Positions 50,026-62,326 of a stretch of DNA of 64,000 nucleotides are shown one piece after another. A program made the position numbers and the translations under genes. How positions within the stretch are numbered: position 1 is the stretch's first letter; every line of letters starts with the position of its first letter. The notes beneath the pieces are model-generated. The model made no database searches and was not told the origin of the DNA. It saw nothing but the letters and a program-made list of their open reading frames with translations. The stretch spans positions 2,029,501 through 2,093,500 of the forward strand of contig CP155577.1 in the NCBI GenBank assembly GCA_001306305.2, in the 5' to 3' direction. This DNA is from Citromicrobium bathyomarinum (lineage in GTDB: Bacteria; Pseudomonadota; Alphaproteobacteria; Sphingomonadales; Sphingomonadaceae).

Positions 50026-50465
50026 GCACAAGTGGTTGGCCGCGCTATGCGGTCCCGGCGGTTCTGATCGCGGGCTGGACCGGGGCATTGTTCCTCCCGG
50101 TTGCGACCACCGATCACATAAACGAAAATCAGACCTTTGCGGGTTGGATGGTACTGTTTCTCGGCACGCTTTTCGGCTGGATGACCCTCCAGTTCGCAGC
50201 GTACGCCAATCCCGTGTTTTTGCTCGCTCTGGCCTATAGTGCTTGGCGCGGCGAAAAGGCCGGGCGGCGGATTTTACGGATCAGTGCGGTGCTGCTTGCG
50301 CTGGGTATCGTCAGCGCGTTGTTCTGGCGCAATGTTCCGGACGATTCAGGCATGAACGAGATCATAACCTATCATACCGGATATTATGTGTGGCTGGGTG
50401 TGATGGCTGGCGCAGTTGGCTGGCTCTGGTTCATGGCCCGGAAATCACCGGCACACACCGCCTAA
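50022..50465 (+). CDS. small multi-pass membrane protein after phoB
   Basis: A 147-residue protein with four hydrophobic segments (AVPAVLIAGWTGALFLPVA, MVLFLGTLFGWMTLQFAAY, ILRISAVLLALGIVSALFW and VWLGVMAGAVGWLWFMA). A GTG start overlaps the phoB stop. It has no recognisable domain. The overlap places it in the phosphate operon, but a role in phosphate sensing is only inference. Its end overlaps the converging extensin-like gene by 21 bases. Confidence 0.75.
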   Translation: MSTSGWPRYAVPAVLIAGWTGALFLPVATTDHINENQTFAGWMVLFLGTLFGWMTLQFAAYANPVFLLALAYSAWRGEKAGRRILRISAVLLALGIVSALFWRNVPDDSGMNEIITYHTGYYVWLGVMAGAVGWLWFMARKSPAHTA

Positions 50466-51209
50466 CCCGCGCGCCGCCTGATCGAGGTGGAAGTGGTCGC
50501 GATGCGCTTCATTGTACTCGGGTGAGAGGACGGTGCCGAAGGCCCGGCATGCCCCATCGCGCACCTCGCGAAGGAAGCGGGCCTTGTCGCCCTCCCCCTG
50601 CCAGTCGTTGACCACCGCGATCCGGGTACCGTCCGCCAGCACGAAGCCCGCGATGTCGATCGCGTTGGCGGTGGCATGTTCGCTCCACGGGCCTTCGTCG
50701 CGCCCGTACATCCGCCGACAGCTGAAACTGCCGAAATGCTCGATCCGCGCGACCTCCTGCCCGAAGATGTCTCGCGCGGCGGGCTGCACGGCATCACGCC
50801 GCCAGATTTCCATCGCGGCGGCAGTCGCACAGGTCGTGTCGGGCCGCTCGCCAGCGTAGGGAAAGTCATCGAGCCGTGTGCGGTTGGCGCGAAGGCATGG
50901 CGCCTCGCCCAGCGGCTCCAGCGCGGTGAAGGCAACCGCGCTGCGCTCCAGCACCGCGTGGCATTGCGCCGGGTCGTCCCGCAGCGCCGCAATCTTGGAG
51001 CGTGTCGCCCAGCCCGGTTCGTCGCGCAGGTCGAGCGGGGCCCACGGATTGCTGCCCGGATTCTCGGCCAGCCACGCCCGCCCGCCGACGAATAGCGCCA
51101 GCAGGACCAGGATCGCAAGCACGCGCCGATCGGTCCCGAGGCTGGCGAGCGGCCTCAGCACGCGGACGACACCACGCAGCCATCGGGAATGTCGCTTGCC
51201 CTCGCTCAT
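50445..51209 (-). CDS. extensin-like C-terminal domain protein (putative peptidoglycan D-amino-acid peptidase)
   Basis: A 254-residue protein with an N-terminal membrane anchor (VLAILVLLALFVGGRAWL). The extensin-like C domain has SFSCRRMYGRDEGPWSEHATANAIDIAGFVLADG and the late EYNEAHRDHFHLDQ, giving the SxHxxxxAxD and HxDHFH zinc-ligand pattern of M15-like D-Ala-D-Ala peptidases. Cysteines are conserved. The ATG at 51209 lies two bases after the dnaE2 stop, so it may be co-expressed with the SOS genes upstream. Confidence 0.87.
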   Translation of the reverse strand: MSEGKRHSRWLRGVVRVLRPLASLGTDRRVLAILVLLALFVGGRAWLAENPGSNPWAPLDLRDEPGWATRSKIAALRDDPAQCHAVLERSAVAFTALEPLGEAPCLRANRTRLDDFPYAGERPDTTCATAAAMEIWRRDAVQPAARDIFGQEVARIEHFGSFSCRRMYGRDEGPWSEHATANAIDIAGFVLADGTRIAVVNDWQGEGDKARFLREVRDGACRAFGTVLSPEYNEAHRDHFHLDQAARGLGGVCR

Positions 51210-51211
51210 CC

Positions 51212-54200
51212 TCAATGAAAGTCGCGCGACTTGGGAATGATCCGGACATTGCGTGGATGGCCCCCGGTGCCGGGCAATTCGTCGATCAGGTCGCGGGTGC
51301 GGATCGCCCGTCCGCCAGCGGGATCCTCCGCCCCGTCGCGCAGGTCATCGCGCGGGTTGATCTTACCTGACGGCAGCGGTGAATTGACATGGTCCGCCCG
51401 CGCCAGCTCATAGCGCAGCGCATCGTCGGACAGGCGGGCAAGCATGTGTGTCGCGTCGGTCATGTGGTGGGCGATGACGTGGATCACCTCCTCATCGTAC
51501 TCCACCCGCCCGCGCACCTCCATAAGCCGCGCGCCCATCACCACCTTGCGCTGTTTTTCCTTGAGGTCGGGCCACACGACCAGGTTCACCACCCCCGTCT
51601 CGTCCTCCAGCGTGATGAAGCATACACCCTTGGCGCTGCCCGGCCGCTGGCGGATCAGCACCACGCCCGCGACCTGTACCATGGAGCGGAACTTCCGCTC
51701 GCGCAGGTCGCACGCGCGCACGAAGCCACGCTCGGCCAGATCGGCGCGCAGGAAGGCCATCGGGTGCGCCTTCAGGCTGAGCCGGGTGGTCTGGTAATCG
51801 GCAACCACTTCTTCGGAGAGCGGCATCACGGGCAGCGCGGTTCGCACCTTCTCCGCCCCCTCCTCACGCTCTGCCGCCGCGCGAAACAGCGGCAGGTCTG
51901 GCGCGGCGATCAGGCTGCGCGCGTCCCACAGCGCCTGCCGACGCGGAAGGTCGAGCGACTGAAAGGCATCGGCGCTGGCGAGCCGTTCGACATACGAGGG
52001 AGCAAGCCCTGCGCGATCGCGTAGCTCTGCCACATCACGATAAGGGCCGTTTTCGATCCGTTCCGCCACCAGCTTGGCCGCGACATGCTCAGGGAAACCG
52101 TCGATCTGACGCAGGCCGAGGCGCAGGGCCATGTGTCTCTTATCCTCCCCGGCACGGGGAGGAATGTCCTCCAGCGTACAATCCCAGTCCGACCCATTCA
52201 CATCCGCCGGCAGCACCGCGACCCCATGCTCCGCCGCATCGCGCACGATCTGTGCGGGCGCGTAGAAGCCCATCGGCTGCGAATTGAGCAGCGCGCAGGC
52301 AAAGGCCGCCGGATAGTGGCACTTGAGCCAGCTGGAGACGTAAACAAGGTGCGCAAAGCTGGCCGCGTGACTCTCCGGGAAGCCATATTCCCCGAAACCC
52401 TTGATCTGGTCGAAGCAGCGCTGGGAGAAGTCGGGGTCGTAGCCACGCTCGATCATCCTCCCGACCATCATTTCCTCATGCGCATGCACCATTCCCCGGC
52501 TGCGGAAGGTGGCCATCGCCCGGCGCAATCGATTGGCCTCTGCCGGAGAGAATTTGGCCGCATCGATGGCGATCTTCATCGCCTGCTCCTGAAAGATCGG
52601 CACCCCGAAAGTGCGCCCAAGGATCGAGGACAATTCGTCAGGCGGTCCATGCTCGGGCGCGGGCGCGGGAAGCTGGAAATCGGTCTTTCCCGCGCGCGCC
52701 AATCGCCGTTGCTTGAGATAGGGGTGAACCATATCGCCCTGGATCGGGCCAGGACGCACGATCGCGACCTGCACCACCAGATCGTAGAATTGGCGCGGTT
52801 GCAGGCGCGGCAGCATGTTCATCTGCGCCCTGCTCTCGACCTGGAATACGCCGAGCGAGTCTCCCTTGCACAGCATGTCGTAAACCGCAGGATCCTCCTG
52901 CGGGATGGTGGCGAGGGTCAGCGGCCGCTCGTAATGGTCCTCCAGCAGATCGAGGCCCTTGCGAATGCAGGTCAGCATCCCGAGCGCGAGCACATCGACC
53001 TTGAAGATGCCAAGATCGTCGATGTCGTCCTTGTCCCATTCGATGAAACTGCGATCGGGCATTGCGCCATTACCGATCGGCACGGTCTCGGTCAGTAACC
53101 CGTCGGTGAGGATGAAACCGCCGACATGCTGGGATAGATGTCGCGGCATTCCAATCATTTGACTGGTGAGCGTGAGAACGCGCCTCAAGTGCGGATCGGT
53201 GATATCCATGCCCGTTTCGGCAACGTGATCCTCGCCGATCTCGCGCCCCCAGCCACCCCACACGGTCCGCGCGAGCGACGCGGTTACGTCTTCCGACAGG
53301 CCCATCGCCTTGCCCACCTCACGGATCGCCATGCGCGGGCGATAGTGAATGACGGTGGCGCACAGGCCGGCGCGATCCCGTCCATACTCCTTGTAGATGT
53401 GCTGGATGACTTCCTCGCGCCGCTCATGCTCGAAATCGACATCGATATCGGGCGGCTCGCTGCGCTCTTCGGAAAGAAACCGGTCGAACAGCAACTGGTG
53501 CTCGGCAGGGTCGACGCTGGTGATGCCGAGGCAGAAGCATACGGCGGAATTGGCCGCGCTGCCGCGCCCTTGGCACAGAATCGGAGGCGTCTGGCTACGC
53601 GCGAAATCGACGATTTCCTTGATGGTGAGGAAATAGGGGGCGAGATCGAGCTTGCCGATCAGCTCCAGCTCATACTCAAGCGTGGTTTTAACTTTAGCAG
53701 GTATCACGTTGGAATAACGCCAATTTGCACCCTCCCAGGTCTGCTGTTCCAGATATTGCTGCGGGGTCATGCCGTCGGGATAAGCCCGCTTCGGGTACTC
53801 GTACTTCAGATCTTCAAGGCTGAAGGTGCAGGCATCCGCGATATCGCGTGACGCCATGATGGCATGGGGCCAGCGCGCAAACAGGCGGATCATTTCTTCG
53901 GGCAATTTGAGGTGCCGCTCGGCATTGGCGTGGAGCAGGTGGCCGGCGGCCTCCACGGTCGTCTTGTGGCGGATTGCCGTCATGACGTCATTGAGCGGCC
54001 GCCGCTCGGCCGCGTGGTAATGCACATCATTGGTGGCGAGCAGCGACAGGCCGTGCTCGCGCGCCATCGCGTCCAACCGATCGATCCGCGCGATATCGTC
54101 GCCGCGATAGAGATAGGCGGCGGCAAGGTGGCGCAGCGTCGGCAACTGCGCGGTCAGGTGCGCAAGGAGCCGGGGGAATGGCGCGGTCAGTTCGACCTTG

Positions 54201-54784
54201 TCGTTACCCCGGACCTGATCCGGGCTAACGCTTCCCTTCTGCAGCTCCGAAGAAGGATGACGGAAGGGGATCACATTGCTCGGCACCGCAATCGTGAATC
54301 GTACATCGAGATCGTCCGGCGGTAGCAGGATCAGTTGCACATCCTCAGCATGGTCAGCGAGCATCGCGAGGTCGATCTCGCACACACCCTTCTCCTGCCA
54401 CTTTCCCGAAAGCGTCTGCATCCGGCCTTGGCTGATCAGACGACACAGGCACCCGTAAGCCGCGCGATCCTTCGGGTAGGCGAGAAAGGCGAGGCCTTCG
54501 ACCGTCTCGATCCGGCAACCGATCACGGGCCGCAGCTTTAGCGTCTTCGCCTCGGTGTGAATACGGACCACGCCAGCCATCGTATTGGCATCGGCAATTC
54601 CGAGCGCGTCATAGCCAAGCATTCGCGCGGTGGTAACGAGGTCGACCGCGTCCGAACTGCCGCGCAGGAAGCTGAAGCACGAGACGAGACCCAGCTCGAC
54701 GAAGGGCGCGCGGGGTGGCGGATCGACGCCATCCGGGTCGATCTCTATCCGGCGCTTGTCGGGGGTGAGTGGTGCGTCGGGCAT
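51212..54784 (-). CDS. dnaE2: error-prone DNA polymerase DnaE2
   Basis: A 1190-residue C-family polymerase without the replicative DnaE1 tail. The PHP domain begins FVELGLVSCFSFLRGSSDAVDLV. Palm motifs include PPDIDVDFEHERREEVIQHIY and CQGRGSAANSAVCFCLGIT; the C-terminal OB-fold has FRSMVQVAGVVLIRQRPGSAKGVCFITLEDETG. In the mutasome it copies damaged DNA together with ImuA and ImuB. Residues about 169-202 are unlike relatives and correspond to a palindromic repeat (54202-54266) in frame, which helps explain the greater than usual length. Confidence 0.95.
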   Translation of the reverse strand: MPDAPLTPDKRRIEIDPDGVDPPPRAPFVELGLVSCFSFLRGSSDAVDLVTTARMLGYDALGIADANTMAGVVRIHTEAKTLKLRPVIGCRIETVEGLAFLAYPKDRAAYGCLCRLISQGRMQTLSGKWQEKGVCEIDLAMLADHAEDVQLILLPPDDLDVRFTIAVPSNVIPFRHPSSELQKGSVSPDQVRGNDKVELTAPFPRLLAHLTAQLPTLRHLAAAYLYRGDDIARIDRLDAMAREHGLSLLATNDVHYHAAERRPLNDVMTAIRHKTTVEAAGHLLHANAERHLKLPEEMIRLFARWPHAIMASRDIADACTFSLEDLKYEYPKRAYPDGMTPQQYLEQQTWEGANWRYSNVIPAKVKTTLEYELELIGKLDLAPYFLTIKEIVDFARSQTPPILCQGRGSAANSAVCFCLGITSVDPAEHQLLFDRFLSEERSEPPDIDVDFEHERREEVIQHIYKEYGRDRAGLCATVIHYRPRMAIREVGKAMGLSEDVTASLARTVWGGWGREIGEDHVAETGMDITDPHLRRVLTLTSQMIGMPRHLSQHVGGFILTDGLLTETVPIGNGAMPDRSFIEWDKDDIDDLGIFKVDVLALGMLTCIRKGLDLLEDHYERPLTLATIPQEDPAVYDMLCKGDSLGVFQVESRAQMNMLPRLQPRQFYDLVVQVAIVRPGPIQGDMVHPYLKQRRLARAGKTDFQLPAPAPEHGPPDELSSILGRTFGVPIFQEQAMKIAIDAAKFSPAEANRLRRAMATFRSRGMVHAHEEMMVGRMIERGYDPDFSQRCFDQIKGFGEYGFPESHAASFAHLVYVSSWLKCHYPAAFACALLNSQPMGFYAPAQIVRDAAEHGVAVLPADVNGSDWDCTLEDIPPRAGEDKRHMALRLGLRQIDGFPEHVAAKLVAERIENGPYRDVAELRDRAGLAPSYVERLASADAFQSLDLPRRQALWDARSLIAAPDLPLFRAAAEREEGAEKVRTALPVMPLSEEVVADYQTTRLSLKAHPMAFLRADLAERGFVRACDLRERKFRSMVQVAGVVLIRQRPGSAKGVCFITLEDETGVVNLVVWPDLKEKQRKVVMGARLMEVRGRVEYDEEVIHVIAHHMTDATHMLARLSDDALRYELARADHVNSPLPSGKINPRDDLRDGAEDPAGGRAIRTRDLIDELPGTGGHPRNVRIIPKSRDFH
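54202..54266. repeat. palindromic repeat inserted in frame in dnaE2
   Basis: Two adjacent hairpins: CGTTA-C-CCCGGA, loop CCTGA, TCCGGG-C-TAACG (54202-54230), then CTTC...CCTTCT, a ten-base loop, AGAAGG...GAAG (54231-54266). The first has the CCCCGGACxTGATCCGGG core of a common sphingomonad repeat. It keeps the dnaE2 frame and encodes residues around 173-194. Confidence 0.8.
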
Positions 54785-54806
54785 GGGTGGATTGTCCTGC
54801 CCTCCC

Positions 54807-54893
54807 CGTCATTCGCGCGAAGGCGGGAATCCAGCTTTTCTCGGCGCACCGACCTGCAAAAGAAGCTGGACCCACGCCTTCGCGGGGGTGACG
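54807..54893. repeat. dispersed inverted repeat between udgX and dnaE2
   Basis: The left arm (54807-54839, CGTCATTCGCGCGAAGGCG then TCCAGCTT) and right arm (54858-54893) are imperfect reverse complements around an 18-base loop. The sequence type (CGTCACCCCCGCGAAGGCGTGGG form) is a known dispersed repeat of this bacterial group. It fills the spacer before dnaE2 and could stop or stabilise the transcript. Confidence 0.85.
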
Positions 54894-54909
54894 AGAAAAA
54901 TGGAATGGC

Positions 54910-56343
54910 TCACTGCTCGGCCAAATCCGCCAACCGCGCGCGGACTGCAGCAAGGTCGGCATCGAACAACGCGGCCTGCTTCTCGCGCGCCTCGCCATCG
55001 AGGCGCAGGAGATAGGAAGGATGAGAGGTGACCCACAGCTCGCTGCCGTCCTCAAGCGGGATGGCCTGCCCGCGAACCTTGGAAATGCTGACGGTCTTGC
55101 CCAGCATCCCGCGTGCTGCGCTGGCACCCATGGCCAGCACCAGCTTCGGCTTCACCAGTTCGCGCTCGCCCTCGATCCACCAGCGGCAGGTGTCGATCTC
55201 CTTGGCAGTGGGCGACTGGTGCAGCCGCCGCTTGCCGCGCATCGTGAACTTGAAGTGCTTGACCGCATTGGTGACGTAGGCCGCACTGCGGTTGATCCCC
55301 GCGCGTTCCAGATGCACGTCGAGCAGTTGTCCGGCAGGGCCGACGAATGGCCGCCCTTCCTGATCCTCGTGATCGCCCGGCTGCTCGCCCACGATCATCA
55401 GCGCCGCATCGGAAGGCCCCTCGCCCATCACCGCGCGATTGTCCAAGCACCCGATCGGGCATTTGCGGCAGCCTTCGATAGCCTCGCCGATCGCCTCCAG
55501 GCTTTCGGGACGTGAGCCGTCATCGCGCTCTCCTGCCGCCACCATTTCGCTTTCCCGCTGCTGCGCACCCGCGATCAGTTCCGGGATAAGCGCGGCTTCG
55601 GGCAGATTCTTCCAGTATTTGCGCGGCATTTCGGAGAGCATCGCGCCCACTTTCAGTCGCGCGGGATTGAAGATCGACGCGTAGTAGGTGCGCCACAGGT
55701 CCTCGACCGGGTCGCCGTGCGGCGCGTCGGCCTTCTGCGCGGGTGGCCCCTCGCGCATGGTCTCGCCATCCCAGTGGAGCGTGCCCTGCGGCGTCAGGAT
55801 CGACCAGCGCATGCTCGCAAACCGGCGCCGGAAGAAGCCCGCATTGGCGCGCAGGATGTGATGCTCGGGCTCGAACCAGGCGACGTAATGCTCGCCATCC
55901 TCTGCTTCGACCTGTCGGAAGCGGACGAAGGCGTGCATCTTGTGGCTGTCGCGCCGGACGTTCTTGTCGAGTTCCTCGACGCGGCCGACATCCGGATCGG
56001 CCTTGTCCTCCATGATCCGCGGATTGCGCTGGAGCCGCCAGAGCAGGCGATAGAGCAGCGCGAAACGCGCCGGATCGCGGTGCAGCGCGGCATTGCTCGC
56101 GAGGCTCAGGTAGCGCTTGCTCGCGCGGACCGGAGGGGCATCGGCGGGCGGCTCTGGCAGGCGCATGCCGCCGCTCGAAAAGAGATCGTCGGTCCCACCC
56201 GGCTCGACCCACGCGATCTTGTCGGGCGGAATATCGCATTGAATCAGCGCCCGCGCGCGTTCGCGCCAGAAAGCGAAGTCGTCGCTGCGCGGCAGCTGGA
56301 CGGTGTAATGCGCGTGGGGTTTGACGTGCTGGAGCGCGGTCAT
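54910..56343 (-). CDS. udgX: UdgX-type uracil-DNA-binding protein with N-terminal DUF4130 domain
   Basis: A 477-residue protein in two parts. The N-terminal DUF4130 domain (about residues 5-250; YRLLWRLQRNPRIMEDKADPDVGRVEELDKNVRRDSHKMHAFVRFR split across blocks) is followed by a family-4-like uracil-DNA glycosylase domain (about 275-475). The latter has the motif VGEQPGDHEDQEGRPFVGPAGQLLD, HPSYLLR and cysteines for a 4Fe-4S cluster (EGCRKCPIGC). The UdgX hallmark His is in RGKRRLHQSP, where relatives have KRRIH. UdgX forms a covalent bond with uracil DNA through that His. It is the direct downstream partner of the radical-SAM gene. Confidence 0.93.
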   Translation of the reverse strand: MTALQHVKPHAHYTVQLPRSDDFAFWRERARALIQCDIPPDKIAWVEPGGTDDLFSSGGMRLPEPPADAPPVRASKRYLSLASNAALHRDPARFALLYRLLWRLQRNPRIMEDKADPDVGRVEELDKNVRRDSHKMHAFVRFRQVEAEDGEHYVAWFEPEHHILRANAGFFRRRFASMRWSILTPQGTLHWDGETMREGPPAQKADAPHGDPVEDLWRTYYASIFNPARLKVGAMLSEMPRKYWKNLPEAALIPELIAGAQQRESEMVAAGERDDGSRPESLEAIGEAIEGCRKCPIGCLDNRAVMGEGPSDAALMIVGEQPGDHEDQEGRPFVGPAGQLLDVHLERAGINRSAAYVTNAVKHFKFTMRGKRRLHQSPTAKEIDTCRWWIEGERELVKPKLVLAMGASAARGMLGKTVSISKVRGQAIPLEDGSELWVTSHPSYLLRLDGEAREKQAALFDADLAAVRARLADLAEQ

Positions 56344-56360
56344 GACGCATGCCCCAAGCC

Positions 56361-56447
56361 CTCACCCCCGCGCAGGCGGGGGTCCAGATAAGAGTGGTGG
56401 CACGAACCGGCGGTGTTAGCTGGGGCCCTGCTTTCGCAGGGGTGACG
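56361..56447. repeat. dispersed inverted repeat between the radical-SAM gene and udgX
   Basis: Left arm CTCACCCCCGCGCAGGCGGG with GGTCCAG (56361-56387) and right arm CTGGGGCCCTGC with GCAGGGGTGACGG (56415-56447) pair imperfectly. It is the same general repeat type as at 54807-54893 and occupies most of the 115-base spacer. Confidence 0.82.
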
Positions 56448-56458
56448 GGAAATGATGG

Positions 56459-57697
56459 TCATGCCGCAAACAGCTCCAGCTGCTCGGTCTTGGGTGCGAG
56501 CAGCGTGCGCAGGTCCGCGCGGTCGGTCAGCATCGTCGGGCGCCAGTCCACGGTGCAGATGAAGGGCCGCACCTTGGTCAGCGACACGGTCAGCCGCGCC
56601 ACATCGTCGAGCCGCAAGGTCCGGTACCGACGCGAGGCGAGGATGCGGTGCACCGCTTTCACCCCCAGTCCCGGCACGCGCAGCAAATCCTCGCGGCTCG
56701 CGCGGTTGACGTCGACCGGAAAGCGTTCGCGGAATTTCAGCGCCCAGGCGAGCTTGGGATCGATGTCGAGTGGCAGGTTTCCGTCGGCCTCGGCCGCCTG
56801 CATGATCTCCTGCGGGCGGTAATCGTAGAACCGCATCAGCCAGTCGGACTGGTAGAGGCGGTGTTCGCGGATCAGCGGCGGGCGCTTCAAGGGTAGCACG
56901 GCGGAGGCATCGGGGATCGGCGAGAAGGCGCTGTAATAGACGCGGCGCAGGCCGAAACTGTCGTACAGCCGGCTCGCCCGGCCCACGATATCCGCATCGC
57001 TCGCCGCGTCGGCACCGACGATCATCTGGGTCGACTGGCCCGCGGGCGCAAAGCGCGGCGCGTGCTTGAACCGCTTCTTCGCATCCTTCGCCTCGACGAT
57101 ATCGCTACTGGTCTTGCCCAGTGCGCCCTCGATCTGGCGCGCATCCTTGTCCGGCGCGAGGCGCGTCAGCCCCGCATCGGTCGGCAGTTCGACATTGATC
57201 GAGACGCGATCGGCGTAAAACCCCGCGCGGTGAATGATCTCCGGGTCCGCCTCGGGGATCGTCTTCAGATGGATATAGCCCCGGAAATCGTGCTCCTCGC
57301 GCAGGATGCGCGCGGCCTCCACGATCATCTCCATCGTGTGGTCGGAGCTCTTGATGATGCCCGAGGAGAGGAACAGCCCCTCGATATAATTGCGGCGATA
57401 GAAACTCAGCGTCAGGTCCGCGACCTCCTGCGGTGTGAAGCGCGCGCGCTGCACATTGGAACTCTTGCGATTTATGCAATAGTGGCAATCGAAGATGCAG
57501 TGATTGGTCAGCAGGATTTTCAGCAGCGAGATACACCGGCCATCGGGCGCGTAGGCATGGCAGATACCCATCCCCTCGGTCGAGCCGATTCCCCCGCTTT
57601 TGCTGTTGCGCTTGGCCGTGCCGGACGAGGCGCACGACGCGTCATACTTGGCCGCATCGGCGAGTATTTTCAGCCGGTCGAGGATCGGAGAGCTCAT
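56459..57697 (-). CDS. radical-SAM protein paired with UdgX (putative DNA modification/repair)
   Basis: A 412-residue radical-SAM enzyme. The cluster motif is CIFDCHYC, after KILLTNH, and the SAM barrel continues with GLFLSSGIIKSSDHTMEMIVEAARILREE. The C-terminal part has a helix-hairpin-helix DNA-binding motif (VDVNRASREDLLRVPGLGVKAVHRILASRR). The family is usually found beside DUF4130-UdgX genes and called a putative DNA repair protein; no reaction has been shown that I know of. A LexA box lies two bases before its ATG, so it heads an SOS run to udgX, dnaE2 and the extensin-like gene. Confidence 0.93.
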   Translation of the reverse strand: MSSPILDRLKILADAAKYDASCASSGTAKRNSKSGGIGSTEGMGICHAYAPDGRCISLLKILLTNHCIFDCHYCINRKSSNVQRARFTPQEVADLTLSFYRRNYIEGLFLSSGIIKSSDHTMEMIVEAARILREEHDFRGYIHLKTIPEADPEIIHRAGFYADRVSINVELPTDAGLTRLAPDKDARQIEGALGKTSSDIVEAKDAKKRFKHAPRFAPAGQSTQMIVGADAASDADIVGRASRLYDSFGLRRVYYSAFSPIPDASAVLPLKRPPLIREHRLYQSDWLMRFYDYRPQEIMQAAEADGNLPLDIDPKLAWALKFRERFPVDVNRASREDLLRVPGLGVKAVHRILASRRYRTLRLDDVARLTVSLTKVRPFICTVDWRPTMLTDRADLRTLLAPKTEQLELFAA

Positions 57698-57699
57698 TT

Positions 57700-57714
57700 G
57701 TTCTTTATATGTTC
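57700..57714. promoter_or_regulatory. LexA box of the radical-SAM/udgX/dnaE2 run
   Basis: GTTC-TTTATAT-GTTC matches the alphaproteobacterial SOS box GTTC-N7-GTTC exactly. It ends two bases before the ATG at 57697. A TTGACA-type -35 lies at 57745-57740 on the same strand, so LexA would cover the transcription start. Confidence 0.9.
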
Positions 57715-57738
57715 ACTTTGCCTTCCTGCCTAGCCCCC

Positions 57739-59886: not shown

Positions 59887-61440
59887 TCAGGCATACAGGC
59901 CCTGCAAGAACCACTCAGGCACCCCGCCGCGTCCGTCGCCCGCAATACCGTAGCGATAAATCCAGTAGCGGCGCCCGGCATCATCCTCGATCCGGTAATA
60001 GTCGCGCAGCCGCGCGCTGCCGCGTTCGCGCCACCATTCGGGCGCGATCCGTTCCGGACCCTCGACCCGCGCGATCTCGTGCACTTCGCCGCGCCAGCGA
60101 AACCTTTGCGGAAAACCGTCGGGCGTGGCGTAGAGCACCGCGATCGGCTCCGCACGGTCGAGCAGCTTGAGCGGGCGCGCGTGGAAGCGAAAAGCTTCCT
60201 GCTCAGGTGGTTCGGGCGATAGTGGCGGCTGCCAGGCTTGCGAGCGTTCGGGCACATGGCTTCCCTTCAGCACCGGGCGGCGCACTGCCTTGGGGCCGAG
60301 ACGCGTGGTCAACCGGTCCACGAAAGCGGATAGCGAGGTGCCGTGCCGTTCGGCAGCGGCCTCGATGTCGTCCTGGCTAGCGGGCAGCGCCTCCGCCCAG
60401 CTCGCGCGCAGGCGAACCAGCTCGATCCCGAAGCCCGCGTCGATATCGCCCAGCTTTTCGCCTAACAGCCGCACGATATGGGTCGCATCGCGGGTCGCGG
60501 CGGCGAGTTCGAGCCGGCGCACGATCACCTCGCCATCCACGCGCCACATGCCCAGATCGAGCCGCCGGGCACCGGTGCCCTGCCCTTCCAGCTCGCAGAT
60601 CATGTCTTGCGCAAGATCGGCGAGCACCCGGTCGAGCAGATCGCGATGGCGAATCGGCTCCATCAATCTGCGCTGCACCAGCGGCACTTGCTGCGGCACC
60701 ACCGGCAGCAGCGGTTCGGGCACCCGGCCGAGCAGCTGGTCCATCCGGACCAGCGGGTTGGCGGCGGGCGATTTGCGGTTGCGGAAACGGCGATGGAGTG
60801 CGTCGCGGCCCACCGTGCCCAGCTCGCCGAGCCGCTTGAGCCCGAGCCGCCGCAGCACGGTGAGCACGTCGCCGTCGAGCCGCAGCGCGGCAACCGGCAG
60901 ATCGGACAGGCGCGCCTCCATATCGTCTTGGGGGGCGAGAATGCTGCGATCCGGCCCGTAATGCGCCAGCGCCCATGCCGCGCCAGAGGTAGGCGCGATC
61001 GCCGCGCGCATGGCGAAGCCGCGATGCGTGAAGGCATGATGGACATCCGCCAGCAACTTCGCCTCGCCGCCGAACAGGTGCGCCACTGCGGTCACATCGA
61101 CCAGCAGGCCGTTGGGTGGGTCGAGCGCGGACCACGGGCCCCAGCGCATGGCCCACGCGGCAAGCTTTTCCAGCTCGGCAAGATCGCCCGCCGGATCGCC
61201 GGGTACAGCGACGATCGAGGGACACAGCGTGCGCGCATCGGCGAGCATGGTGCCGATCCGCGCGCCTGCGTTTCGCGCTGCGCTGTTCGTCGCCTGGATG
61301 CGCGGGCCGTGCGCGGTCTCGGCAATCAGGACCAGCGGCTGCGCGTCCGCGCCTTCGCCCCGCGCGCAGCCTTCACCCAGACGCCAGCGGTCGATCGCGA
61401 AGGCGGCAAGCCAGATCGAGAGGATGCGGCGGGGCGCCAT
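59887..61440 (-). CDS. imuB: ImuB, inactive Y-family polymerase-like mutasome protein
   Basis: A 517-residue Y-family-like protein from ATG 61440; a TTG at 61446 overlapping the imuA stop (TTGA) is also possible. The start RRILSIWLAAFAIDRWRL replaces the catalytic Asp segment of real Y-family polymerases, so it is expected to be inactive and to recruit DnaE2 to the clamp. A helix-hairpin-helix part (LRRLGLKRLGELGTVGRDALHRRF) and the VRRLELAAATRDATHIVRLLGEKL little-finger block are visible. The C-terminal region ends WIYRYGIAGDGRGGVPEWFLQGLYA in blocks, the usual ImuB tail. Confidence 0.94.
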   Translation of the reverse strand: MAPRRILSIWLAAFAIDRWRLGEGCARGEGADAQPLVLIAETAHGPRIQATNSAARNAGARIGTMLADARTLCPSIVAVPGDPAGDLAELEKLAAWAMRWGPWSALDPPNGLLVDVTAVAHLFGGEAKLLADVHHAFTHRGFAMRAAIAPTSGAAWALAHYGPDRSILAPQDDMEARLSDLPVAALRLDGDVLTVLRRLGLKRLGELGTVGRDALHRRFRNRKSPAANPLVRMDQLLGRVPEPLLPVVPQQVPLVQRRLMEPIRHRDLLDRVLADLAQDMICELEGQGTGARRLDLGMWRVDGEVIVRRLELAAATRDATHIVRLLGEKLGDIDAGFGIELVRLRASWAEALPASQDDIEAAAERHGTSLSAFVDRLTTRLGPKAVRRPVLKGSHVPERSQAWQPPLSPEPPEQEAFRFHARPLKLLDRAEPIAVLYATPDGFPQRFRWRGEVHEIARVEGPERIAPEWWRERGSARLRDYYRIEDDAGRRYWIYRYGIAGDGRGGVPEWFLQGLYA

Positions 61441-61442
61441 AC

Positions 61443-62309
61443 TCAACCAAGAACCCTCTCCCCGTCGGGGGAGAGGATGGCGACACTTGCTCCGAAGGAG
61501 CTCACAGGGCCTAGAGAAGGGGACTTGCCATTTGGAACCTTAGTTCGCCCCTCTCCAACTCCGGCTAGGTCGCTATGCGACCAAGCCTTCGTATCCTCTC
61601 CCCGCACGGGGAGAGAGGTTTCGCGCTCCGCCACCAACGCCTCCGCATCCTCGCTCAATCGCCACAGGCCCGGCGGATGCTTGCGCGCGCGGAACAGTTC
61701 GGCCTGCCACGCAGGCACGCCCGGAGCCTGACGGTTCCATTGCGGCCTTGCCGAGGGAGCAGCCTGCACCGCCCACCGTTGCCGCGCGGACGAAAGATCG
61801 CGCGTCCCATCGAGGCGCACCAGCGTCAGCGGGACACCGTACTTTTCCGCAGCCAGCGTCAGCCGGCGCGAGGCGGTGAAATCGAGCGCGCGGGGGCTGC
61901 CCACGATCTCGCCGATCACGAAGGCAACATCGCGGCAGCGCACCGCCTCTTCCAGCGCGAACAGCGCATCCTCGTCCTTCTCGGCGAGCACGTGGATCAG
62001 GCGGTGACGAATTTCCTGCGGCAGGCCTGCCCGGAACGGGCGCCCACCGCGCTTCACCGCGGCGCGAGTCTGCACCCACACCACCGCGCGGCGATCCTCC
62101 GCCTCCTCCCCCTCTTCGCGCACCCGGTGTCGCCACGCGTCCAGCGCCAGAGCGAGCGCCGCGCCCGCCCCGCTGCCCTCTCGACCGGAGGCGAAGATTT
62201 CGCTTTGCGCGACGGCATCCAGCCCGGGCTGCCAGCGCTGTGCGGTGGCATCCGATGCAAGCTGGGCGGCGGTGGGAAGGCTGTCTTGGATCATGGCGGA
62301 ACGACTCAT
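61443..62309 (-). CDS. imuA: ImuA, RecA-like mutasome protein
   Basis: A 288-residue protein related to RecA/SulA that interacts with RecA and ImuB in damage tolerance. The core (about residues 1-228) includes ALALALDAWRHRVREEGEEAEDRRAVVWVQTR, LFALEEAVRCRDVAFVIGEIVGSPRALDFTASRRLTLAAEKYGVPLTLVRLDG in blocks. From about residue 230 the sequence is encoded by a palindromic repeat cluster (61454-61618), so the last 58 residues are probably an acquired tail. Two starts are possible (62309, 62294); the LexA box sits 2 bases before the first. Confidence 0.92.
   Translation of the reverse strand: MSRSAMIQDSLPTAAQLASDATAQRWQPGLDAVAQSEIFASGREGSGAGAALALALDAWRHRVREEGEEAEDRRAVVWVQTRAAVKRGGRPFRAGLPQEIRHRLIHVLAEKDEDALFALEEAVRCRDVAFVIGEIVGSPRALDFTASRRLTLAAEKYGVPLTLVRLDGTRDLSSARQRWAVQAAPSARPQWNRQAPGVPAWQAELFRARKHPPGLWRLSEDAEALVAERETSLPVRGEDTKAWSHSDLAGVGEGRTKVPNGKSPSLGPVSSFGASVAILSPDGERVLG
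61454..61618. repeat. palindromic repeat cluster encoding the ImuA C-terminus
   Basis: Two hairpins of the same type, CCTCTCCCC-GTC-GGGGGAGAGG (61455-61476) and CCTCTCCCC-GCA-CGGGGAGAG (61595-61616), flank a spacer with further partial complementarity (GAGAAGGGGAC versus GCCCCTCTC). This is the CCCTCTCCCC-type dispersed repeat of sphingomonads. The whole cluster stays open in the imuA frame and replaces its natural stop region. Confidence 0.85.
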
Positions 62310-62311
62310 AT

Positions 62312-62326
62312 GTTCCTTTTATGTTC
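62312..62326. promoter_or_regulatory. LexA box of imuA-imuB
   Basis: GTTC-CTTTTAT-GTTC is an exact SOS box. Read on the imuA strand it is GAACATAAAAGGAAC, so the likely Shine-Dalgarno AAGGA is inside the operator. The box ends two bases before the ATG at 62309, the same spacing as at 57700. Confidence 0.9.

Follow-up and report, generated by a model that had tools for sequence, protein, structure and literature searches.

Gene pairs encoding a radical-SAM protein and a uracil-DNA glycosylase (UDG), COG4277-COG1573, are reported to be under SOS control in the Bacteroidetes and, through citation of Erill 2016 and Paes da Rocha 2008, in the Verrucomicrobia and Alphaproteobacteria (PMC8565304, in the excerpts available). 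SOS control of the radical-SAM/UDG pair is already published. The operon described for Bacteroidetes, Verrucomicrobia and Caulobacter resembles the present locus in carrying such a pair under LexA; however, in the available parts of that paper it consists of two genes without DnaE2 and no clamp motif is mentioned, whereas the unit proposed here includes DnaE2 (PMC8565304). In the accessible text of another study, DUF4130 is predicted to be an enzyme related to mutagenesis and linked with radical-SAM and UDG genes, as in the present locus, within a network of SOS-linked SplB-like radical-SAM enzymes (PMC3765255). That network is centred on SRAP and ImuB-C neighbourhoods, and the accessible text did not contain the present gene order or operator. 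The SOS regulons of Gram-positive bacteria and Balneolaeota include a radical-SAM protein, the family of which is not stated in the sections available (PMC7739468), and CC2333 is listed as one of four Caulobacter uracil-DNA glycosylase genes (PMC1839093, available excerpt).

UdgX of Mycobacterium smegmatis removes uracil and remains attached to the resulting abasic site, and the precise physiological role of UdgX is called largely unknown (PMC10359453, text available in part). Mycobacterial mutasome function requires the clamp motif of ImuB, which is the mutasome hub (PMC10421592, likewise in part). The present locus is similar to the imuA-imuB-dnaE2 mutasome operon in that the three genes are on one strand, with an SOS box 2 nt before imuA; the difference is that here a radical-SAM/udgX pair with its own box lies between imuB and dnaE2. 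Among the matches listed in a literature search, and in such text as they offered, there was no report that placed this radical-SAM family and DnaE2 in a common unit or that described a clamp motif in the family. As far as that search reaches, four points are new: that the pair is located inside a split mutasome locus, that dnaE2 apparently takes over its operator, that the promoters share one form, and that the radical-SAM protein has a clamp-like tail.

We propose that, in the 64-kb stretch of DNA that was analysed (the window), a LexA-type box heads an SOS unit composed of the radical-SAM gene, a DUF4130-udgX fusion and dnaE2, with the extensin-like gene as a possible further member, inside a split mutasome locus. 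As an explanation of the whole arrangement this proposal is judged to be likely.

Gene content of the locus

The radical-SAM, udgX, dnaE2 and extensin-like genes had been placed on one strand, with no opposing gene, in an earlier note on this DNA. All four minus-strand open reading frames were identified (Table 1), the dnaE2 product scoring above the cut-off of the error-prone polymerase model, and none of the nine overlapping plus-strand frames that were scanned (152-337 amino acids) matched Pfam at E 0.01. Absent from that note were the clamp-binding-like tail of the radical-SAM protein and the imuA-imuB genes, which are located upstream of the radical-SAM gene on the same strand (59887-62309). 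Plus-strand frames, one of which encodes a carbonic anhydrase (PF00194), lie between imuB and the radical-SAM gene. The imuA-imuB-dnaE2 genes are therefore not contiguous, imuB being separated from dnaE2 by these frames, the radical-SAM gene and udgX. By eye, a GC-rich palindromic repeat was seen in the 3' part of the imuA frame (61440-61620) and seems to give its product an odd C-terminus.

Table 1. Features of the locus, numbered from the first nucleotide of the window
Feature	Position	Strand	Remarks
LexA-type operator ahead of imuA	62312..62326	-	exact box, 2 nt before imuA
imuA-like gene	61443..62309	-	name based on adjacency to imuB; without Pfam or NCBIfam match
imuB	59887..61446	-	PF00817, PF11799, PF20114
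Predicted -35 element TAGGCA	57727..57732	-	17 nt before -10; conserved block from box offset -18
LexA-type operator GAAC-ATATAAA-GAAC	57700..57714	-	precedes radical-SAM gene; exact box in 81/81 family loci
Predicted -10 element TATAAA	57704..57709	-	inside operator; TATA conserved from box offset +5
Radical-SAM protein, TIGR03916 (rSAM_link_UDG)	56459..57697	-	574.2 bits vs cut-off 343.5; Radical_SAM PF04055
CxxxCxxC Fe-S motif C67-C71-C74	57476..57499	-	invariant in two alignments (19 rows, 48 rows)
C-terminal QLELF, beta-clamp-binding-like motif, residues 406-410	56468..56482	-	QxxLF in 167/214 relatives
Spacer, GC-rich palindromic repeat	56344..56458	.	115 nt; repeat pieces recur in genome
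DUF4130 (TIGR03915)-UdgX (TIGR03914) fusion	54910..56343	-	TIGR03915 228.4 bits, TIGR03914 316.4 bits
DUF4130 domain, residues 92-249	55597..56070	-	PF13566
UdgX domain, residues 252-467	54943..55590	-	TIGR03914
UdgX loop KRRLH with H375, counterpart of cross-linking H109 of UdgX	55219..55233	-	H375 invariant 48/48
Spacer, long palindromic repeat	54785..54909	.	125 nt; no intrinsic-terminator match
dnaE2, error-prone DNA polymerase	51212..54784	-	NF004225, 1368.9 bits vs cut-off 939
Extensin-like gene (Extensin-like_C)	50445..51215	-	PF06904; first ATG just after dnaE2 stop

A search of 196 genomes of the same bacterial order gave 82 with a radical-SAM gene over the cut-off. One of these, G002 (contig end, 1.8 kb), was left out of the sampled loci, and 80 loci together with the window made up the 81 family loci; G239, from a separate search, was likewise left out. 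Within the scanned flank, 35 of the 81 had the radical-SAM, udgX and dnaE2 genes as a same-strand run; these are referred to as linked loci. A set of named loci (L154-L233) overlapped the other sets, the proteins of L169 and L032 being identical, and the counts were not summed.

The radical-SAM protein exceeded the curated cut-off of TIGR03916, a family which we take to correspond to COG4277, and carried the CxxxCxxC motif and the paired DUF4130 (TIGR03915) gene of that family. In 210 of 214 radical-SAM loci, tblastn placed a relative of the partner downstream on the same strand, at a distance of no more than 1.5 kb. The constant partner of the radical-SAM protein was DUF4130 and not UdgX; the UdgX domain was absent from some partners, such as those of L101, L107, L109, L137, L138 and L151 (279-324 amino acids).

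The nearest solved structures of the fusion protein were those of UdgX, and DUF4130 had no solved relative by sequence. Motif A (GEQPG, G319-G323) and H375 were invariant in 48 of 48 alignment rows, and the KRRIH loop of UdgX, which holds the nucleophilic histidine, was present as KRRLH. The loop pattern GK-R-R-x-H was found in 30 of 34 linked udgX genes; L007, L013 and L033 had F or H at its first R. The protein shares GEQPG, the KRRxH loop histidine and approximately 44% identity over the domain with M. smegmatis UdgX (PDB 6ajp, 6iod). It differs from the latter in its fusion to DUF4130, in its place alongside a radical-SAM gene in a proposed SOS unit, and in motif B, which is HPSYLLR and departs at the fourth place from the HPS(S/A)(L/V)(L/V)R given in the published abstract. 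In L051 (genome G030) the udgX frame was broken, the match stopping at residue 311 and resuming in another place, which is either a mutation or an assembly error.

The LexA-type box and the predicted promoter

An exact LexA box had been noted two bases before the radical-SAM gene, and the coordinates agree: the box, GTTCTTTATATGTTC, occupies 57700-57714, and 2 bases separate it from the minus-strand radical-SAM ATG, the first base of which is 57697. The 64-kb window contained four exact matches to the box compared with 1.47 expected, and at least four were found in 7 of 100 shuffles; the motif count in the window alone is weak evidence, not beyond chance. Conservation gave a different result. 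An exact box was present within -50 to +15 of the expected start of all 81 family radical-SAM genes, window included. The family loci were first scanned from -400 to +90 and then recounted in the stretch used for the control (-250 to +60), in which the box was again found in 81 of 81 radical-SAM genes, as against 3 of 510 other open reading frames of the same loci. A chance match, although allowed by the window count, was ruled out by this conservation, and the box was therefore taken as real.

Exact boxes were also found in 35 of 36 radical-SAM loci from other Alphaproteobacteria (control, 3/267), the exception being L107, and the GTTC-N7-GTTC box was present in 76 of the 80 named loci (control, 5/596). 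Neither LexA-type motif occurred in the scanned stretch of Niveispirillum sp. L193, Xanthomonas dyei L223, Limimaricola cinnabarinus L226 or the Chthoniobacteraceae MAG L232. In 17 loci of other classes the GTTC-N7-GTTC box was absent from the scanned stretch, and 12 of these 17 had CTGT-N8-ACAG, the gammaproteobacterial LexA motif (control, 0/116); L107 and the remaining five loci had neither motif there. The replacement of one box by the other suggests that the SOS link outlives a change of LexA motif. In the host genome, GTTC-N7-GTTC was located 43 bp before the matched lexA start and 126 bp before the matched recA start. The radical-SAM gene has at its promoter the GTTC-N7-GTTC operator, conserved among relatives, that marks the alphaproteobacterial LexA (SOS) regulon, and it is probably under LexA/SOS control in the host.

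IMG/VR held two loci with viral copies. L234, an IMG/VR contig filed as viral, carried a radical-SAM gene that was 77% identical, with a box 20 nt upstream, and is perhaps a mis-sorted chromosome.

Alignment of 76 of the 81 family promoters on the box (L057, L071, L072, L077 and L080, in which the box has the other orientation, were omitted) revealed a TTGgC-like block from -18 and TATA from +5, with a spacing of 17 nt. The start codon followed 2 nt after the box in 65 of the 76. The commonest -35 form among the linked loci was TTGGCG, and the window's own -35 element (TAGGCA) is a poor match. The operator probably overlies the -10 element of a leaderless promoter. Since the box covers the -10 element, transcription should start approximately at the start codon, giving a leaderless mRNA from a promoter that would be blocked directly by LexA.

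dnaE2 and the radical-SAM operator

The genes of the linked loci were closely packed, with a radical-SAM to udgX gap of at most 11 nt in 32 of the 35 and a udgX to dnaE2 gap of at most 19 nt in 29. None of the 35 had a box in the final 120 nt of udgX or in the gap that separates it from dnaE2. Both imuA and imuB were on the same strand in 34 linked loci, the exception (L051) beginning near a contig edge, and all of these 34, the window among them, had a box near imuA (-300 to +80). In L010, L020, L038, L046 and L050 imuB ended 48-63 nt before the radical-SAM gene, which kept its own box. With the radical-SAM/udgX pair and its box between imuB and dnaE2, dnaE2 would come under the radical-SAM operator.

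Seven genomes that lacked the radical-SAM gene but had a close dnaE2 were picked for comparison and do not constitute a census; they were drawn from L081-L090, with L084, L086 and L090, which have a more diverged dnaE2, omitted. In four of them (L081 and L087-L089) imuB abutted dnaE2 and there was no box at dnaE2. In L082, L083 and L085 imuB was at least 475 nt away, and a box was located 22, 138 and 19 nt, respectively, upstream of the expected dnaE2 start. Behind the box of L083 was a frameshifted radical-SAM remnant (tblastn, residues 12-31, 55% identity, E 0.25), a match that is weak by itself but is in the expected place; box, start codon and remnant ahead of dnaE2 are probably a deletion scar. 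The box at dnaE2 in genomes without the pair is read as a remnant: the pair appears to have been lost and its operator to have stayed with dnaE2.

The earlier note had called the two spacers of the window repeat spacers, and palindromic repeats were confirmed in both. The repeats of the two spacers resemble each other (80% over 35 nt), with 26-nt arms that are 92% complementary, and pieces of the spacer at 56344-56458 recurred at nine further sites of the genome, including the other spacer. One spacer folded unusually well (z -4.55) and the other did not (z -1.28); their hairpins could weaken read-through in the window. A dnaE2 promoter of its own, or transcription ending in these spacers, had been named as findings that would overturn the shared unit, and a simple scan of the minus strand for textbook promoter and terminator forms revealed neither in either spacer.

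These hairpins are one of several observations that favour another explanation, namely that only the radical-SAM/udgX pair forms an SOS operon and that dnaE2 is a bystander left by the breakup of imuA-imuB-dnaE2, with its own promoter and a neighbourhood that has no functional meaning. In the other 46 of the 81 family loci the pair, still under its box, had no dnaE2 downstream on the same strand within the scanned flank. L016, L027 and L041 kept the radical-SAM, udgX and extensin genes together and carried a diverged imuA-imuB-dnaE2 cassette elsewhere (L095, L096 and L093, respectively; dnaE2 49-63% identical), which looks like replacement of the mutasome. Five of the 35 linked loci, including the window (55960-55974), also had an exact box within udgX. 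Against a bystander dnaE2 are the lack of a box at dnaE2 in all linked loci together with the short gaps, the box upstream of dnaE2 in the three chosen loci that lack the pair and have imuB apart, and the separate occurrence, in other families, of a divergent pairing with imuA-imuB-dnaE2. This explanation is considered improbable.

The boxes inside udgX are identical or almost identical in sequence and, by eye, coincide with codons of the ELDKN stretch of DUF4130. As a candidate operator, the box at 55960-55974 was for that reason set aside as probable coding sequence.

In a phylogeny of 214 radical-SAM proteins, the loci with the same-strand link belonged to one clade of 67 rows, 46 of which were linked and the named members of which include Erythrobacteraceae and Novosphingobium. 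Nine changes of this link were needed among the decidable rows; 23 loci with short flanks were excluded from the change counts and kept in the groups table. In L115, L119, L124 and L135, which belong to another family and group with a named Bradyrhizobiaceae MAG, imuA-imuB-dnaE2 and the radical-SAM gene were in divergent orientation, and a single exact box was located within the 250 nt that precede the latter. Henriciella pelagia L195 had the divergent arrangement with two boxes. The divergent pairing in other families suggests that the association with the dnaE2 mutasome probably arose more than once.

The joint induction of uracil-DNA capture and mutagenic synthesis proposed in the earlier note therefore stands in part. 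The comparison, with the gene order in 35 of 81 loci and a box at dnaE2 in 0 of 35, supports joint SOS control of the radical-SAM gene, udgX and dnaE2, so that damage probably turns on repair and mutation together. SOS control of udgX is supported, but uracil capture as the core function is not, since the UdgX domain is missing from some partners.

The C-terminal tail and the proposed mechanism

The radical-SAM protein ends in QLELFAA. Among 214 relatives, 167 had QxxLF in the last 16 residues and 209 had a relaxed form there; the corresponding counts were 3 and 27 of 5139 windows of 16 residues from the rest of the same proteins. The beta-clamp-binding consensus is QL[S/D]LF or QxxLF in the available part of the source (PMC12309361). 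QLELF matches this consensus and is located at the chain end, in a low-confidence segment of the structural model (406-412), as expected of a clamp peptide in an accessible segment. Five rows had QLGFGF or QLGFAF instead of the clamp motif, and four of these were from the divergently paired loci. This one lineage would be explained more readily if the C-terminal QxxLF were a structural or partner-binding tail rather than a clamp motif; the fit to the published consensus, the position at the chain end and the rarity of the motif elsewhere in the same proteins make that doubtful. Binding of the radical-SAM protein to the beta clamp through QLELF is regarded as reasonably likely.

The operator, the promoter, the clamp-like tail and the UdgX features led us to propose a damage-induced unit in which lesion processing, capture and bypass would meet at the clamp. 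The parts of this proposal that concern the operator, the gene order, the absence of an operator at dnaE2 and the promoter position come from sequence and comparison. RecA-driven cleavage would remove LexA, and a sigma-70-type promoter with its -10 element inside the box would fire. A leaderless, or nearly leaderless, mRNA would begin at the radical-SAM start codon and run through udgX into dnaE2, a start and read-through that we expect with considerable confidence, and imuA-imuB would fire in parallel from their own box. The radical-SAM protein would dock on the beta clamp via QLELF and, most likely, process a DNA lesion with DUF4130, while the UdgX domain would excise uracil and cap the abasic site covalently. 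DnaE2 and ImuA-ImuB, also at the clamp, would copy past the remaining damage. Joint action of the pair with the mutasome is put forward tentatively, at somewhat less than an even chance. A bolder form of the proposal, which we hold to be rather unlikely, is that a radical-SAM enzyme tethered to the clamp serves, with DUF4130-UdgX, as a fourth, catalytic arm of the mutasome; it would chemically process or cap damaged bases while sharing both clamp and transcript with DnaE2. If this were true, radical repair, uracil capture and error-prone bypass would be one SOS machine.

The pair might instead be a stand-alone base-excision or direct-reversal system, acting on a uracil or thymine lesion and sharing only its timing with mutagenesis; COG1573-COG4277 is described as an SOS-controlled, putative base excision repair system in the excerpts available (PMC8565304). 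Of the 82 genomes that had the radical-SAM gene, 79 also had DnaE2 over the cut-off, as did 52 of the 114 that lacked the gene (raw counts, without correction for relatedness). The pair persisted in the three genomes with no DnaE2 over the cut-off (G134, G168 and G193); these and the three genomes with a diverged cassette elsewhere indicate that the pair can do without this dnaE2. Repeated physical pairing with imuA-imuB-dnaE2 argues against an independent system, as does the clamp-binding-like tail, which would bring the pair to the mutasome's place. The stand-alone system has an appreciable probability but is not the reading that we favour, which is action alongside the mutasome.

To our knowledge, no reaction has been assigned to the radical-SAM/DUF4130-UdgX pair. 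A near-constant SOS operator under two LexA-type motifs, the pairing with the mutasome and the predicted clamp tail are hints to its substrate, which may be sought at the sliding clamp, after DNA damage and alongside translesion synthesis. The function of the pair and the role of UdgX in living cells become directly testable.

The predicted structure of the radical-SAM protein (mean pLDDT 82.8) was a general radical-SAM barrel. A fold search with the model returned HydE, lipoyl synthase and biotin synthase at Z of approximately 16, matches to the general barrel only, and spore photoproduct lyase was absent among the best 50 matches listed, an absence from which nothing follows. There was no strong sequence match among solved structures (best E 0.011); helix-hairpin-helix structures such as ComEA and RuvA matched at E 0.015 to 0.78, and a helix-hairpin-helix match at residues 328-356 was below Pfam's cut-off. 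In addition to the Fe-S motif, C22, C46 and C55 (within 57530-57636 of the window) did not vary among the relatives in either alignment (48/48 and 19/19) and perhaps hold an auxiliary (second) iron-sulfur cluster.
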